DNA of 51,157 bases. It comes from Prevotellaceae bacterium (GTDB lineage Bacteria > Bacteroidota > Bacteroidia > Bacteroidales > UBA932). The notes under the pieces were generated by a model, which ran no database searches, was not told the origin of the DNA, and worked only from the letters and a program-made list of their open reading frames with translations. The stretch is from the NCBI GenBank assembly GCA_031269545.1, contig JAISYZ010000131.1, positions 1-51,157 of the forward strand. The letters run 5' to 3'. Below are positions 2,341-49,405 of this stretch, piece after piece; positions within the stretch are counted from its first letter, which is position 1; each line of letters begins with the position of its first letter. The position numbers and the translations under genes are program-made.

Positions 2341-3882
2341 TTATATTAATTTCTCAAAAATCTTTTTGAAACTTACCTGCTCGTTGATGATTTCATATAT
2401 TTTTGAAATATCCACACGTTGCTGTTCCATTGTGTCGCGATGTCGAACTGTTACGGTGTTATCGTCCAGCGTTTGATGATCGACAGTTATGCAAAACGGC
2501 GTGCCTATTGCATCCTGACGCCGATAACGTTTTCCGATTGAATCTTTTTCATCGTATTGACAATAAAAATCGCACTTCAATGAGTTCAATATTTCACGCG
2601 CTTTTTCGGGCAATCCGTCTTTTTTCAACAAAGGCAATACGGCAAGTTTTACAGGCGCAAGCACGGGCGGAATATGAAGCACAATGCGCTGTTCGTCATC
2701 AGAGAGCCGTTCTTCGTGATATGAAGACGATAAAATCAAAAGCATCATTCTATCAACGCCGATAGATGTTTCAATCACGTAAGGGACGTAACTTTCGCCT
2801 GTTTCGGAATCAAAATACTGCAGTTTTTTTCCTGAATATTTTTGATGACTTCCAAGATCAAAATCCGTGCGCGAATGTATTCCTTCAACTTCTTTAAATC
2901 CAAATGGAAAATTAAATTCTATGTCGGTTGCAGCATTTGCATAATGTGCAAGTTTTTCGTGATCGTGAAAACGATAGTTGTCATCGCCAACGCCAAGCGA
3001 TTTATGCCATTTCATGCGGTTTTCCTTCCATTTTGCAAACCATTTAAGTTCTTCGCCCGGACGTACAAAAAACTGCATTTCCATTTGTTCAAATTCTCTC
3101 ATTCTAAATATGAATTGCCGTGCAACAATTTCATTGCGAAAGGCTTTACCTATTTGGGCAATTCCAAACGGAATTTTCATTCGTCCTGTTTTTTGGACAT
3201 TCAGGAAATTCACAAAAATGCCCTGCGCCGTTTCGGGACGCAGATAAATCGTATTTGCGCTTTCGGCTGTCGAACCCATTTGTAAAGAAAACATTAAATT
3301 GAACTGTCGAACATCTGTCCAGTTGCGTGTTCCCGATATTGGGCAAACAATTTCGCAATCCAGTATCAATTGTTTAAGAGCATCCAAATCGTTGCTGTTC
3401 AGCGCTCCGTTCATGCGATGCGTGATTTCGGCGATTTTGTTCTGATTTCTTATGACGTTAGGATTTGTTTCTCTAAATTTTGTCTCATCAAAACTGTCTG
3501 CAAATTTTTTTCTGCCTTTTTCTACTTCTTTTTCTATTTTATCTTCAATTTTTGCGATATGTTCTTCGAGCAAAACATCGGCACGATAACGTTTCTTCGA
3601 ATCTTTATTGTCAATCAGCGGATCGTTGAATGCGCCGACATGTCCCGATGCTTCCCAAATGCGGGGATGCATAAAAATTGCAGAATCTATGCCTACAATA
3701 TTATCATTGAGCCTGACCATTGCTTCCCACCAGTATTTTTTTATGTTGTTTTTCAGTTCTGCGCCAAGTTGTCCATAATCATATACGGCGCTTAATCCAT
3801 CATAAATTTCGCTTGATTGAAAAATAAACCCATATTCTTTTGAGTGAGCAATAAGTTTTTTAAATAAATCTTCCTGTGTCAT
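2341..3882 (-). CDS. glyS: Glycyl-tRNA synthetase (alpha2 class II type)
   Basis: This 513-residue enzyme charges tRNA-Gly and is of the single-chain homodimeric type, not the alpha2beta2 type of proteobacteria. Evidence includes the N-terminal SSEIYDGLSAVYDYGQLG, the class II motif 2 region around FRNEIVARQFIFRMREFEQME, motif 3 with TSIGVDRMMLLILSS, and a C-terminal anticodon-binding domain beginning near PPVLAPVKLAVLPL. Many bacteria and archaea use this form. The gene is apparently monocistronic, with a TAnnTTTG box at 3922-3929, and it converges with nadE. The frame is complete and no anomaly was seen. Confidence 0.95.
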   Translation of the reverse strand: MTQEDLFKKLIAHSKEYGFIFQSSEIYDGLSAVYDYGQLGAELKNNIKKYWWEAMVRLNDNIVGIDSAIFMHPRIWEASGHVGAFNDPLIDNKDSKKRYRADVLLEEHIAKIEDKIEKEVEKGRKKFADSFDETKFRETNPNVIRNQNKIAEITHRMNGALNSNDLDALKQLILDCEIVCPISGTRNWTDVRQFNLMFSLQMGSTAESANTIYLRPETAQGIFVNFLNVQKTGRMKIPFGIAQIGKAFRNEIVARQFIFRMREFEQMEMQFFVRPGEELKWFAKWKENRMKWHKSLGVGDDNYRFHDHEKLAHYANAATDIEFNFPFGFKEVEGIHSRTDFDLGSHQKYSGKKLQYFDSETGESYVPYVIETSIGVDRMMLLILSSSYHEERLSDDEQRIVLHIPPVLAPVKLAVLPLLKKDGLPEKAREILNSLKCDFYCQYDEKDSIGKRYRRQDAIGTPFCITVDHQTLDDNTVTVRHRDTMEQQRVDISKIYEIINEQVSFKKIFEKLI

Positions 3883-3921: not shown

Positions 3922-3929
3922 CAAAAATA
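3922..3929 (-). promoter_or_regulatory. glyS promoter, -7 box
   Basis: On the minus strand TATTTTTG fits TAnnTTTG and lies about 40 nt upstream of the glyS ATG. Confidence 0.55.
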
Positions 3930-4065
3930 CAAATAAAAGTTCAGAAATGCACCATGTTCAAAAAAAATGACAGAATAGTTGTTAATGATTAATTGATTAA
4001 TTGTTGCGTTGACAAATAAATAAACAAAACAAAAAAATCACAATTCGCACAAAAGGCACGCTTTA

Positions 4066-6333
4066 TTATTTCAATATAAATCGCGATTTGTTGTCTGTTG
4101 TTGAACTTCCTCCTATGAATATATGAAATTCGCCCTGTTCAGCAACATATTCCAAATCAGAATTATAAAATTTAAGCAAATCCTGTGTAATGATAAATTC
4201 TACTTTTTGACTTTCGCCGGGTTGCAGCATTATCTTTTTGAAACCTTTTAGTTCTTTTACCGGTCGAGTTATGCTTCCAACTATATCTCTGATATAAAGT
4301 TGTACAATTTCTTCGCCTGCCGTTTTTCCTGTATTTGTGAGCGTTACCGAAGCCGTTATATTGCCATTTTCCTTCATTACCGTGTCTGATAATTGTATGT
4401 CAGAATAAGAAAATTGCGTATAACTCAATCCGTGTCCAAAATGATACAGTGGTTCGTTACTGACATCGAGATATTTGGATGTATATTTTTCGTTTTGACT
4501 GAACGGTCGCCCTGTGTGCTTGTAATTGTAATAAACGGGAATTTGTCCTGTGTTGCGAGGAAAACTCATAGTTATTTTTCCCGAAGGATTTGCTTTTCCG
4601 AATAATATATCTGCAATGGCTTCGCCTGCCATAGTTCCAGCAAACCATGTTTCGAGTATGGCGTCAATATTATTGTGTTCCCATTGCAATGCCAGCGGAC
4701 GTCCGTTCATCAATACCAGCACAACAGGTTTTCCTGTCGTTTTCAGCGCTTTGAGCAATGCCTGCTGATTGGAGGGCAGTTCTATATTGCTTCGGCTGGC
4801 TGCTTCGCCCGACATTCCGAAACTTTCGCCCAATACGGCAACTATTACATCTGCTTTCATTGCCGTTTGTACGGCTTCGTTAATAAGTTGCTGCGGTGAT
4901 TTAGTGTCAATTGTGATTTGTGTTCCGTATTTGTTGAGTTCGGCGCTCAATTCAACATCATCAATAATATTACAGCCTTTGGAATAAAAAAATTTATTTT
5001 CGCCAAATTGTTTTTCGAGAGCCATCCACAAACTTACAGCATCCTTATAATCGCCTGCACCGCTCCAGTTTCCTGTCAGGTTGCGTTGATCTTTAACCAA
5101 ATCGCCAATGAATGCAATTTTTTTTGAAGCATCGAGAGGCAAAATATTATTATCGTTTTTGAGTAATGTTATACTTTTTACGGCGGCTTCTTTACTTAAA
5201 GCAAGTTTTTCTTTGTTTAATATTTGTGTTTCGGCGCGTTTATCGCTCAATCCGCGATAAGGATCGGCGAATAATCCGAGTTTATATTTTGCTTCGAGGA
5301 TACGGCGACAGGCTACGTCAATCGTTTGTTCTTTTACTTTTCCTTCTTTTATCAAAGATAGCAGTTCGTCAACAAAATATTCGCTTACCATATCCATATC
5401 TACGCCTGCATTTATCGACATTTCAGATACTTTTGCCTTATCGCCTGAGCCATGATTTTCCATTTCCATAATAGCCGAATAATCTGTTACTACAAATCCT
5501 CCAAAATTCCAATTGTTGCGAAGTAATTCGGTGAGCAGCCATTTATTACCGGAAGCAGGAATACCGTCAATTTCGTTGAATGAAGTCATAACCGAAGAAA
5601 CGCCGATTTCTACGGCGGCTTTGTATGGTGGCAAATATTCGTTGTACATTCGTATGCGACTCATATCTACAGTATTATAATCGCGACCCGCTTCTGACGC
5701 TCCATACAATGCAAAATGTTTCACGCATGACATTATTGTATTTTGCTTTGACAAATCGCCCTGTTCATAACCTCTAACGAATGCTTTTGCTATTTCAGAA
5801 CCTAAAAAAGCGTCTTCGCCTGCGCTTTCGCTTACTCTTCCCCAGCGCGGATCGCGAACAATATCAACCATTGGAGAGAAAGTCCAATGTAAACCATCTG
5901 CCGATGCTTCGTCTGCTGCGGCTGTCGCGCAACGCTCAATTAACAGAGTATCCCAAGTCGCCGACATTCCGAGAGGAACAGGAAAAATGGTTTTGTGACC
6001 GTGAATTACATCATATCCGAAAATGAGCGGAATTTTTAATCGTGTCTGATTAACCGCGATTTCCTGTAACTTGCGTACAGCATTAGGAGTGAATGTATTG
6101 AAAACGCCGCCAACAAGTCCATCTTTAATTTTTTGTTCTACATTTTCGCTCAATCGTGGTCCTGTTACATCAAAACCTATTGGAAGCAAATTTAACTGTC
6201 CGATTTTTTCTTCGACAGTCATTTGTTTCAGCAAGTTATCAACAAATTTATCCATTTCGGATTTGTGTTGCGAACAGTTGTTGCACAATACCAAAATTAA
6301 AGTTGATACTAAAAATAAAATTGGTTTTTTCAT
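4066..6333 (-). CDS. bglX: Glycoside hydrolase family 3 beta-glucosidase, exported
   Basis: This 755-residue GH3 enzyme resembles periplasmic BglX, which cleaves terminal beta-linked glucose from oligosaccharides. The N-terminal export signal MKKPILFLVSTLILVL is followed by two nearby cysteines (17 and 20). This may be a lipoprotein signal, but neither fits the lipobox well. The TIM-barrel domain (about 30-370) includes KHFALYG and the likely catalytic nucleophile Asp284 in FVVTDYSAI. Next come an alpha/beta sandwich domain (about 390-620, with GESFGMSGEAASRSNI) and a C-terminal fibronectin III-like domain (about 650-750). The start is 61 nt downstream of the popT stop on the same strand. No clear TAnnTTTG box is seen in that gap, so it may be co-transcribed with the ligA-popT group. 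Exact substrate is unknown. Confidence 0.88.
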   Translation of the reverse strand: MKKPILFLVSTLILVLCNNCSQHKSEMDKFVDNLLKQMTVEEKIGQLNLLPIGFDVTGPRLSENVEQKIKDGLVGGVFNTFTPNAVRKLQEIAVNQTRLKIPLIFGYDVIHGHKTIFPVPLGMSATWDTLLIERCATAAADEASADGLHWTFSPMVDIVRDPRWGRVSESAGEDAFLGSEIAKAFVRGYEQGDLSKQNTIMSCVKHFALYGASEAGRDYNTVDMSRIRMYNEYLPPYKAAVEIGVSSVMTSFNEIDGIPASGNKWLLTELLRNNWNFGGFVVTDYSAIMEMENHGSGDKAKVSEMSINAGVDMDMVSEYFVDELLSLIKEGKVKEQTIDVACRRILEAKYKLGLFADPYRGLSDKRAETQILNKEKLALSKEAAVKSITLLKNDNNILPLDASKKIAFIGDLVKDQRNLTGNWSGAGDYKDAVSLWMALEKQFGENKFFYSKGCNIIDDVELSAELNKYGTQITIDTKSPQQLINEAVQTAMKADVIVAVLGESFGMSGEAASRSNIELPSNQQALLKALKTTGKPVVLVLMNGRPLALQWEHNNIDAILETWFAGTMAGEAIADILFGKANPSGKITMSFPRNTGQIPVYYNYKHTGRPFSQNEKYTSKYLDVSNEPLYHFGHGLSYTQFSYSDIQLSDTVMKENGNITASVTLTNTGKTAGEEIVQLYIRDIVGSITRPVKELKGFKKIMLQPGESQKVEFIITQDLLKFYNSDLEYVAEQGEFHIFIGGSSTTDNKSRFILK

Positions 6334-9278: not shown

Positions 9279-11333
<2,055 letters not shown>

Positions 11334-47288: not shown

Positions 47289-47344
47289 ATCATTCGTTTT
47301 TCTTTTATGAATTGATTTGTTAATGTTTATTTGATAGTGGAAGG

Positions 47345-47377
47345 GGCTGTCTTAAAAGTGGGACAGCCTCTTTTTTT
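47345..47377 (+). terminator. Terminator of the gyrB-M23 unit
   Basis: GGCTGTC (47345-47351) pairs with GACAGCC (47362-47368). TC and seven T follow. Confidence 0.8.
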
Positions 47378-47429
47378 GACAGTTCATAATAATTGCAAAT
47401 ACAGACTTTGCTTTTAATAAGTTTCTGCT

Positions 47430-47520
47430 AATACCAGACTGCTATCAAAATGCAATTTGTATAAATTGGTTACCAATAAAACAGATTGATATTTCAGACT
47501 GTTTTGATGCCGTTTTGGTA
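47430..47520. repeat. Dispersed palindromic repeat, copy 2
   Basis: This 91-bp element aligns without gaps to 32695-32785. Its start ATACCAGACTGCTATCAAAA and end TTTTGATGCCGTTTTGGTAT pair as an outer stem. The inner hairpin is ATTGG-TTA-CCAAT where copy 1 has ATTGA-TTA-TCAAT, so one A-T pair has become G-C. Confidence 0.85.
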
Positions 47521-47551
47521 TAAGTAAAAATTTTGTTGTATTGATTAGTTA

Positions 47552-47590
47552 CAAATGAAAATCCCGCTTTATAAGTGGGATTTTCATTTT
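47552..47590. terminator. Palindromic hairpin near the CRISPR array
   Basis: AAATGAAAATCCC pairs with GGGATTTTTCATTT with one bulged base around a short loop. It could end transcription from either strand, including the minus-strand CRISPR transcript. Confidence 0.55.
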
Positions 47591-47660: not shown

Positions 47661-48228
47661 ACTGTTCACGATGTCAAAGATACAAATTTTTGAAAGCAAT
47701 TCACAACTTTCTGCATTCATGACACTTTCCACAGTTTACTGTTCACGATGTCAAAGATACAAATTTTTGAAAGCAATTCACAACCGTTTACTTATTCGTT
47801 CCCCTTTCTGCATGACTGTTCACGATGTCAAAGATACAAATTTTTGAAAGCAATTCACAACGGACATGATGCCCTCCTGATAGAGTACTACACTGTTCAC
47901 GATGTCAAAGATACAAATTTTTGAAAGCAATTCACAACTCTATTATGAATGGCGATCCGCTTGTTTTTACTGTTCACGATGTCAAAGATACAAATTTTTG
48001 AAAGCAATTCACAACTCATATTTTATTGTTATGTCTGTTAATTCACTGTTCACGATGTCAAAGATACAAATTTTTGAAAGCAATTCACAACAAAACCTTG
48101 TTATACTATGCGCGGCATGGACTGTTCACGATGTCAAAGATACAAATTTTTGAAAGCAATTCACAACAAAAAGACCAGAAGGCGTTAAGAAAGTTCTAAC
48201 TGTTCACGATATCAAAGATACACATTTT
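47661..48228 (-). CRISPR. CRISPR array, 7 full repeats plus one half repeat, 7 spacers
   Basis: Seven identical 47-nt repeats start at 47661, 47738, 47815, 47892, 47969, 48045 and 48121, followed by a partial, altered copy at 48199-48228. Spacers are 29-31 nt and all different. In crRNA orientation (minus strand) the repeat begins GTTGTGAATTGCTTTC, the style of 47-nt type II-C repeats from Bacteroidetes. Positions 26-33 of the repeat are TATCTTTG, an exact TAnnTTTG box, and TTG at positions 2-4 is 21 nt upstream of it. Orientation is therefore assigned as minus. No cas gene or anti-repeat (tracrRNA) was found in the window; short open frames across the array are repeat artefacts. Confidence 0.95.
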
Positions 48229-48287: not shown

Positions 48288-49382
48288 CTATTTCGGCGCT
48301 ATTTTGTAGAGAATAAATCCTATTGCTGCAAAAATAATATTGGGAATCCACACGGCAACGCCAGCAGTTGTCAATCCTCCCTGTACGAACATTTTACAGA
48401 ATTGCATAAACAGTATATAAGTAAATCCCAAACCTATACCCAGACCTATATGCAAACCTATTCCGCCACGCACTTTTCGAGACGACAGCGATACTCCTAT
48501 CAAAGTAAGAATAAACGTAGAAAACGGCATAGCAACACGCTGATACTGTTCAATCAAGATACCGTTGGTATTACCTGCGCCGCGCAAAACCTGCTGTCGG
48601 TAATAATCGCGCAGTTCAAAAAAATCCATTGCTTCGACAACATTATCGCGCGAAGCAAGATCGGCATAATTCAGATTTATTACTGTGTCCAAATCATAAC
48701 CTTTTGAAATTGAATCTTGTCCTGTTTCACTAATCGTGCGGATAAAATATTCGTGAATGTGCCACGAATTTTTAACAGTATCGTATTGCGCATAATCAGA
48801 CATAAGTTTCGATTTCAATTCTCCGTTTTCGAGCCTTTCCAGCGAAAATTTTTGTGCTATTCGTCCGAATGTATTGAATGATGCCATATACACATATTCA
48901 TTCTTACTGAGTTGAAAATGAATATTATTCTCATTGTTGACGTATGCTCGGCGAATATATGTATTTTCAAAATCCTGGCGTATTTTTGTCGATGGCGGAA
49001 TGATAAACAGATTCAAGACAAGGCTGAATGTTGCTAATATGAACGATGATATGAAATAAGGATATAAAAGTCGTTTAAAACTTACGCCGCTCGACAGTAT
49101 GGCGACAATCTCAGTATTCGATGCCATTTTTGATGTGAAAAATATTACTGTGATAAATACAAATAATGGCGAAAACAAACTTGCATAATAAGGTATCAAT
49201 CGTAAATAGTAATCAAATATAATGGCAGACATCGGAACATTGTTGATAAATTTTTCTATTTTCTCGCTCAAATCGAAAACAACAATGATACAGATAATCA
49301 ATAACAGTGAAAAAAAATACGTTCCTATGAATTTACGTATTATGTACCAGTCTAATATTTTGAGTTTTCCGTTGAATTTCAT
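48288..49382 (-). CDS. LptF/LptG-family (YjgP/YjgQ) permease
   Basis: This 364-residue inner-membrane protein belongs to the family that forms the transmembrane part of the LPS exporter LptBFG. The N-terminus LDWYIIRKFIGTYFFSLLLI, the segment TSKMASNTEIVAILSSGVSFKRLLYPYF and the C-terminal helix block (RGGIGLHIGLGIGLGFTYIL) are characteristic. About six transmembrane helices flank a large periplasmic beta-jellyroll domain (about 120-270). Whether it is LptF or LptG cannot be decided. The open frame starts at 49400, but the -7 box 49398-49405 overlaps that codon, so the ATG at 49382 is preferred. It lies 31 nt downstream of tgt. Confidence 0.88.
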   Translation of the reverse strand: MKFNGKLKILDWYIIRKFIGTYFFSLLLIICIIVVFDLSEKIEKFINNVPMSAIIFDYYLRLIPYYASLFSPLFVFITVIFFTSKMASNTEIVAILSSGVSFKRLLYPYFISSFILATFSLVLNLFIIPPSTKIRQDFENTYIRRAYVNNENNIHFQLSKNEYVYMASFNTFGRIAQKFSLERLENGELKSKLMSDYAQYDTVKNSWHIHEYFIRTISETGQDSISKGYDLDTVINLNYADLASRDNVVEAMDFFELRDYYRQQVLRGAGNTNGILIEQYQRVAMPFSTFILTLIGVSLSSRKVRGGIGLHIGLGIGLGFTYILFMQFCKMFVQGGLTTAGVAVWIPNIIFAAIGFILYKIAPK

Positions 49383-49397
49383 ATCATTTTTACTCTG

Positions 49398-49405
49398 CAA
49401 AGATA
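49398..49405 (-). promoter_or_regulatory. Permease gene promoter, -7 box
   Basis: TATCTTTG followed by CAGAG on the minus strand sits in the 31-nt gap after tgt. It gives the permease its own start of transcription and excludes the ATG at 49400. Confidence 0.55.

Follow-up and report, generated by a model that had tools for sequence, protein, structure and literature searches.

How are the spacers of a clustered regularly interspaced short palindromic repeats (CRISPR) array transcribed when the same promoter-like motif recurs in every repeat? This question is raised by positions 47661-48228 of contig JAISYZ010000131.1 from a Prevotellaceae bacterium (assembly GCA_031269545.1); the whole stretch analyzed, 51,157 nucleotides, is denoted here as the window. 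The locus is a CRISPR array in which spacers of 29-31 nt separate seven identical 47-nt repeats and a truncated eighth one; it serves a type II-C CRISPR-Cas9 system encoded outside the window. Each repeat very probably acts as a small gene-start module of this system, with transcription directed by the repeat's own -7 box, an element of the promoters of the host's phylum. A stored virus fragment would probably be switched on by the repeat that precedes it.

The array and its repeat-borne box

On the minus strand, the repeat reads GTTGTGAATTGCTTTCAAAAATTTGTATCTTTGACATCGTGAACAGT, with TTG at positions 2-4, followed by 21 nt and by TATCTTTG at positions 26-33. Coordinates, length, orientation, and motif are as claimed in an earlier examination of this DNA without database searches (the sequence-only reading), and the box, claimed there for every repeat, is present in all eight copies, the truncated one included, each time on the minus strand. 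TATCTTTG fits the -7 consensus TAnnTTTG of sigma-A (sigmaABfr). For the Bacteroidetes primary sigma factor, this -7 element is described together with a less pronounced TTTG around -33, which escaped detection in Flavobacterium johnsoniae (PMC7366714). From the leader-proximal, newest copy onwards, the repeats occupy 47661-47707 (repeat 7, box 47675-47682), 47738-47784 (repeat 6, box 47752-47759), 47815-47861 (repeat 5, box 47829-47836), 47892-47938 (repeat 4, box 47906-47913), 47969-48015 (repeat 3, box 47983-47990), 48045-48091 (repeat 2, box 48059-48066), and 48121-48167 (repeat 1, the first full repeat, box 48135-48142). The truncated, oldest copy (48199-48228) forms the 5' terminus; it has kept the box (48213-48220) and the remaining 3' part and has lost the TTG and the part that pairs with the trans-activating CRISPR RNA (tracrRNA). 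The CRISPR RNA (crRNA) strand is the minus strand, because the tracrRNA antirepeat, located at another site of the genome, corresponds to the 5' portion of the repeat as read on the minus strand and because the degenerate copy lies at the minus-strand 5' end, as in other II-C arrays.

TAnnTTTG behaves as a promoter signal of genes as well. The sequence-only reading had placed it before at least eighteen genes of the window, a number that was not reproduced, only 16 upstream regions having passed a strict open reading frame (ORF) filter; the signal itself was recovered, with the motif in sense orientation in 11/16 regions and antisense in 2/16 (13 sense sites vs 3.0 in shuffles). Across 545 upstream regions drawn from this genome and 80 related loci, with CRISPR arrays excluded, 196 sites are sense and 140 antisense, and the second n avoids G (7/196 upstream sense sites vs 134/908 in coding DNA). 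A sigma-70 consensus scan of the array region gave a single weak site, a lower count than in shuffles. For this locus taken singly, TATCTTTG might be a chance match in an AT-rich repeat that was multiplied by array growth: an array of identical repeats counts as observed once, and the whole window has 111 TAnnTTTG sites vs 76 expected. The recurrence of the box in diverged repeats, set out below, speaks against this.

Conservation among Bacteroidota II-C repeats

Cas9 loci from 394 genomes of the phylum and 80 named loci supplied 57 non-redundant repeats of 43-50 nt beginning GTTGTGA.TTGCTTTC, in which the box was allowed to start at positions 22-28; 500 dinucleotide shuffles served as controls. 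A perfect TAnnTTTG is found in 17/57 repeats (0.7 in shuffles, at most 5), and at least five of the six box letters are present in 40/57 (8.5 in shuffles, at most 18). These tests assume independent repeats although the repeats are related, a concern that is lessened, not abolished, by the subset with post-box flanks less than 60% alike, where 8/18 boxes are perfect (vs 0.11) and 14/18 near-perfect (vs 1.72). A later sample of 40 loci, for which the test was fixed beforehand, yielded 11 new repeats with four perfect (vs 0.09) and nine near-perfect boxes (vs 1.06). When all XXnnXXXX patterns in the repeat 3' parts were ranked without a preset motif, TAnnTTTG came first. Perfect boxes occur in hosts recorded as Bacteroidales, Flavobacteriales, and Chitinophagales, and 12 type I/III or unassigned Bacteroidia repeats, a small control, contain TAnnTTTG on neither strand. 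Recurrence in diverged repeats and in the new sample thus lies far above shuffles; by this measure the box in the repeats is not a product of chance, an explanation that is refuted for the family and exceedingly improbable overall. The comparison of the box with the rest of related repeats, proposed in the sequence-only reading, turned out in its favor, as the Bacteroidota -7 box is conserved where flanking bases drift.

The box starts 18-20 nt after the TTG in most repeats and 21 nt after it in eight, the window repeat included, and it ends 12-17 nt before the spacer. Because its position shifts by several nt, unanchored MAFFT fails to align it.

Within the range covered by the survey, the box is not universal. 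It is missing in the GTTGTGGTTTGATTAAAG... class of 36-nt repeats and in several classes with a short Cas9 among Bacteroidota II-C, and also in part of the 46-nt repeats from Pedobacter, Sphingobacterium, and their relatives. Repeat length as the sole factor making room for the box was discarded as a rule, some 36-nt repeats being near-perfect (L080; L213/L221) and others being devoid of it. In the 44-46-nt repeats L125, L160, L153, and L140 (Pedobacter, Sphingobacterium, Leadbetterella, Chitinophagales), TTTGA is shifted in the direction of the pairing part, and in place of the usual box the repeats have a GATATTT-like stretch close to their 3' end; this subgroup perhaps carries a shifted promoter. 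In the 36-nt II-C repeats L043, L044, L046, L047, and L051, which belong to other lineages of the phylum, the last bases before the spacer border are TTACATT or TTAGATT, a sigma-70 -10-like sequence.

tracrRNA genes, the oldest repeat, and the predicted transcript

The same box precedes the antirepeat of tracrRNA genes. Within a search zone of 17-60 nt before the antirepeat 3' end, 44/71 tracrRNA genes show a perfect TAnnTTTG (vs 3.5 in shuffles), and nearly all of these boxes end at 18-29 nt, i.e. just outside the antirepeat; in the new sample, the count is 27/39 (vs 2.0). The genome's own tracrRNA gene has the arrangement TTTG-N18-TATCTTTG-CAC-TACAAATTTTGAAAGC. Its antirepeat, TACAAATTTTGAAAGCAATTCACAAT, lies on the minus strand of locus L010 (contig C207) upstream of cas9 and pairs with the repeat from position 2 to about 25-27. 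On repeat 7, this pairing part corresponds to 47683-47706 on the minus strand (about positions 2-25, up to 27 by direct comparison). Over the 71 tracrRNA genes, the median repeat position at which the repeat:tracrRNA duplex stops is 24. Where the box is good (55 systems), the duplex extends to the TTTG in 5 and stops before it in 50, so that pairing does not explain the conservation of the box. Shared by repeat and tracrRNA gene, the box would therefore mark both the start of the tracrRNA and the 3' border of the repeat's pairing part.

The oldest repeat was likewise informative. An extra degenerate copy stands at the 5' end in 25/62 arrays and at the 3' end in 3/62, the latter being near-identical copies. 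In 39 altered 5'-terminal repeats, 56% of the bases were kept in the first 16 nt, 92% in TA, 82% in nn, and 96% in TTTG (box core vs nn, p=0.0013). The first repeat, through which no crRNA pairs, hence drops its pairing half and retains the box. In II-C systems generally, including those of Neisseria meningitidis and Campylobacter jejuni, most mutations of the oldest repeat, which stands at the 5' end, fall within its first 15 nt, and this repeat must remain a promoter (PMC12080349); what the present data add to this description is the Bacteroidota box and the less strictly kept nn of the terminal repeat. Erosion from the outer side would account for part of the pattern, which is taken as support, not as proof.

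These data also bear on a role of the box in DNA or RNA other than transcription, namely docking of Cas1-Cas2 at spacer insertion or contact of Cas9 or RNase III with the crRNA:tracrRNA duplex. Consistent with such a role are the location of the box where the pairing part ends, the use of repeat sequences by the integrase, and the retention of the bases after the box in terminal repeats. Yet conservation falls on the letters of the phylum's promoter and leaves the two n positions freer, the TTTG lies outside the duplex in the 50 systems mentioned above, an identical box stands ahead of the tracrRNA antirepeat, where the integrase does not act, and the terminal repeat retains the box at the non-acquiring end. 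A role of this kind is accordingly considered quite improbable.

In the favored explanation, transcription from the repeat's own box, the host primary sigma factor would recognize the -7 box of each repeat, and RNA polymerase would start about 4-8 nt past the box, some 6-10 nt ahead of the spacer. The transcript would copy the 30-nt spacer and continue into the repeat that follows, whose initial ~24 nt would pair with tracrRNA, itself driven by the same kind of box immediately ahead of the antirepeat; RNases would then cut the transcript. Since new spacers enter at the 3' end, every spacer would keep a promoter directly upstream as the array grows. The sequence-only reading had each spacer yield its own short crRNA. 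Separate termination, as one way to this end, finds no support: the terminator scan gave no terminator-like signal inside the array, and short crRNAs therefore require RNA processing. Array transcripts may end at 47553-47589 on the minus strand, an element with a z of -7.3 and without a clear T-run, at which the terminator scan made no call.

Alternatively, the array could be transcribed from outside, by read-through from an upstream gene or from another upstream promoter, the box being a remnant or a minor start. A co-oriented gene on the minus strand, judged by its sequence probably lptG (48288-49400), is a possible source; about 60 bp separate its end from the first repeat, an interval in which the terminator scan detected nothing terminator-like. 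Read-through offers no account of the persistence of the box in many species whose repeats have diverged, and the II-C arrays studied so far are described with a promoter in each repeat (PMC12080349). Transcription from outside as the main route is thus regarded as unlikely.

Several observations weigh against a promoter in each repeat. Many repeats hold weaker boxes that are one letter off (TAnnTTTA, TAnnTTAG, TTTCTTTG), and positions 22-28 contain none in a subgroup (e.g. L125, L160, L153). In terminal repeats, the bases after the box are kept at 93%, on par with the box itself. Finally, the array's candidate -33 TTG (47704-47706 on the minus strand in repeat 7, identical in all full repeats) is found at N21 from the box and is absent from the terminal repeat. 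In gene promoters of related genomes, TTG is enriched 18-20 nt before the box and falls to background level at 21. The "complete promoter" of the sequence-only reading was too strong a term, as a role of the repeat's TTG is weakly indicated and uncertain, being confounded with the near-invariant 5' start of these repeats. The observation made in that reading is confirmed, its interpretation partly supported. A wider generalization would be that, in most long-repeat II-C systems of Bacteroidota, crRNA and tracrRNA owe their transcription to matched phylum-specific -7 boxes at the exact pairing border, that the box rather than a longer duplex explains the ~10 nt beyond the usual 36, and that selection reduces the oldest repeat to a bare promoter; the chances that this generalization holds appear evenly balanced.

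Known systems and genomic setting

Repeat-internal promoters of type II-C arrays were reportedly described for N. meningitidis and C. jejuni (Zhang 2013, Dugar 2013). In these species, an extended sigma-70 -10 element occupies the 3' end of a 36-nt repeat, and the Neisseria start lies inside the spacer. In contrast, the Bacteroidota element is TAnnTTTG, placed 12-17 nt before the spacer in repeats of mostly 46-50 nt, and the start is expected before the spacer. The plans agree in having a promoter in each repeat and new spacers at the 3' end (discussed in PMC12080349). The window array represents a form of this known II-C promoter arrangement that is peculiar to the phylum; the evidence supports its -7 box and leaves the -33 element uncertain.

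The sequence-only reading had supposed that such promoters were undescribed for this clade. This does not hold for the general idea: for the Bacteroidota II-C systems of Flavobacterium columnare (PMC8092290) and Flavobacterium psychrophilum (PMC10309648), with transcripts running toward the leader (in F. columnare by eight reads), a repeat-encoded promoter was proposed, the sole element named being a TTG located 33-35 bp ahead of the spacer. TAnnTTTG was named for the cas9 promoter of F. psychrophilum, not for its repeat (PMC10309648). In the open-licence literature, neither a description of the -7 box within repeats nor mapped transcription starts inside the repeats or spacers of such arrays were found. 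CRISPR1 of Riemerella anatipestifer resembles the present system in its 47-nt II-C repeats and in an anti-repeat upstream of cas9, and no promoter was found in these repeats by the authors (PMC5006608). The 47-nt Prevotella intermedia repeat printed in PMC5608340 reads TATCTTTG in crRNA sense, and no remark on the box by its authors was found there.

Earlier publications have thus overlooked the promoter or named only half of it. The findings indicate the probable mode of expression of a CRISPR-Cas9 family very common in gut and environmental Bacteroidota. The box supplies exact bases for mutation and predicts tracrRNA 5' ends, and the crRNA strand and the acquisition end, both fixed from sequence alone, aid in calling protospacer adjacent motifs and in the use of these Cas9s. 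The findings further suggest that the repeat-internal promoter is adapted to the host phylum, the remaining II-C plan being unchanged.

The cas genes of this genome lie on other contigs. The end of contig C207 carries the tracrRNA gene and the start of cas9, and contigs C143 and C77 carry the continuation of cas9, a small unknown ORF, cas1, cas2, a helix-turn-helix regulator, and a HIRAN-domain protein. From these broken contigs, we infer a single cas operon. Cas1 was typed as NMENI/type II, Cas2 is present, and neither csn2 nor cas4 was seen among cas1, cas2, and the following genes on C77; this composition and a tracrRNA whose antirepeat matches the array repeat correspond to type II-C. Arrays of this type usually, though not necessarily, adjoin their cas genes, and here the array lies apart from the cas contigs. 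CRISPR arrays can act in trans. As the cas genes are on other contigs and the genome yielded no further full array, the window array is a remote array of this type II-C system. Two spacers gave no exact match to viral contigs, and a comparison of the array's leader-side flank and of the repeat itself with plasmids returned nothing.

On contig C77 (genome G000, locus L207), the small ORF between cas9 and cas1 (1279-1641) is without a Pfam match, and the regulator and the HIRAN-domain protein following cas2 occupy 2859-3863 and 3929-4261. The same genome contains a Cmr2-like (type III-B) gene at 4032-4553 of contig C126, a short contig on which no array was seen. A solo degenerate repeat with intact TATCTTTG lies at 21986-22023 of contig C248 (about 9985-10030 of locus L009). 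About 35 nt past it, a stretch of ~200 bp begins, the reverse complement of which is found at about 47340-47530 of the window, beside the leader end of the array.
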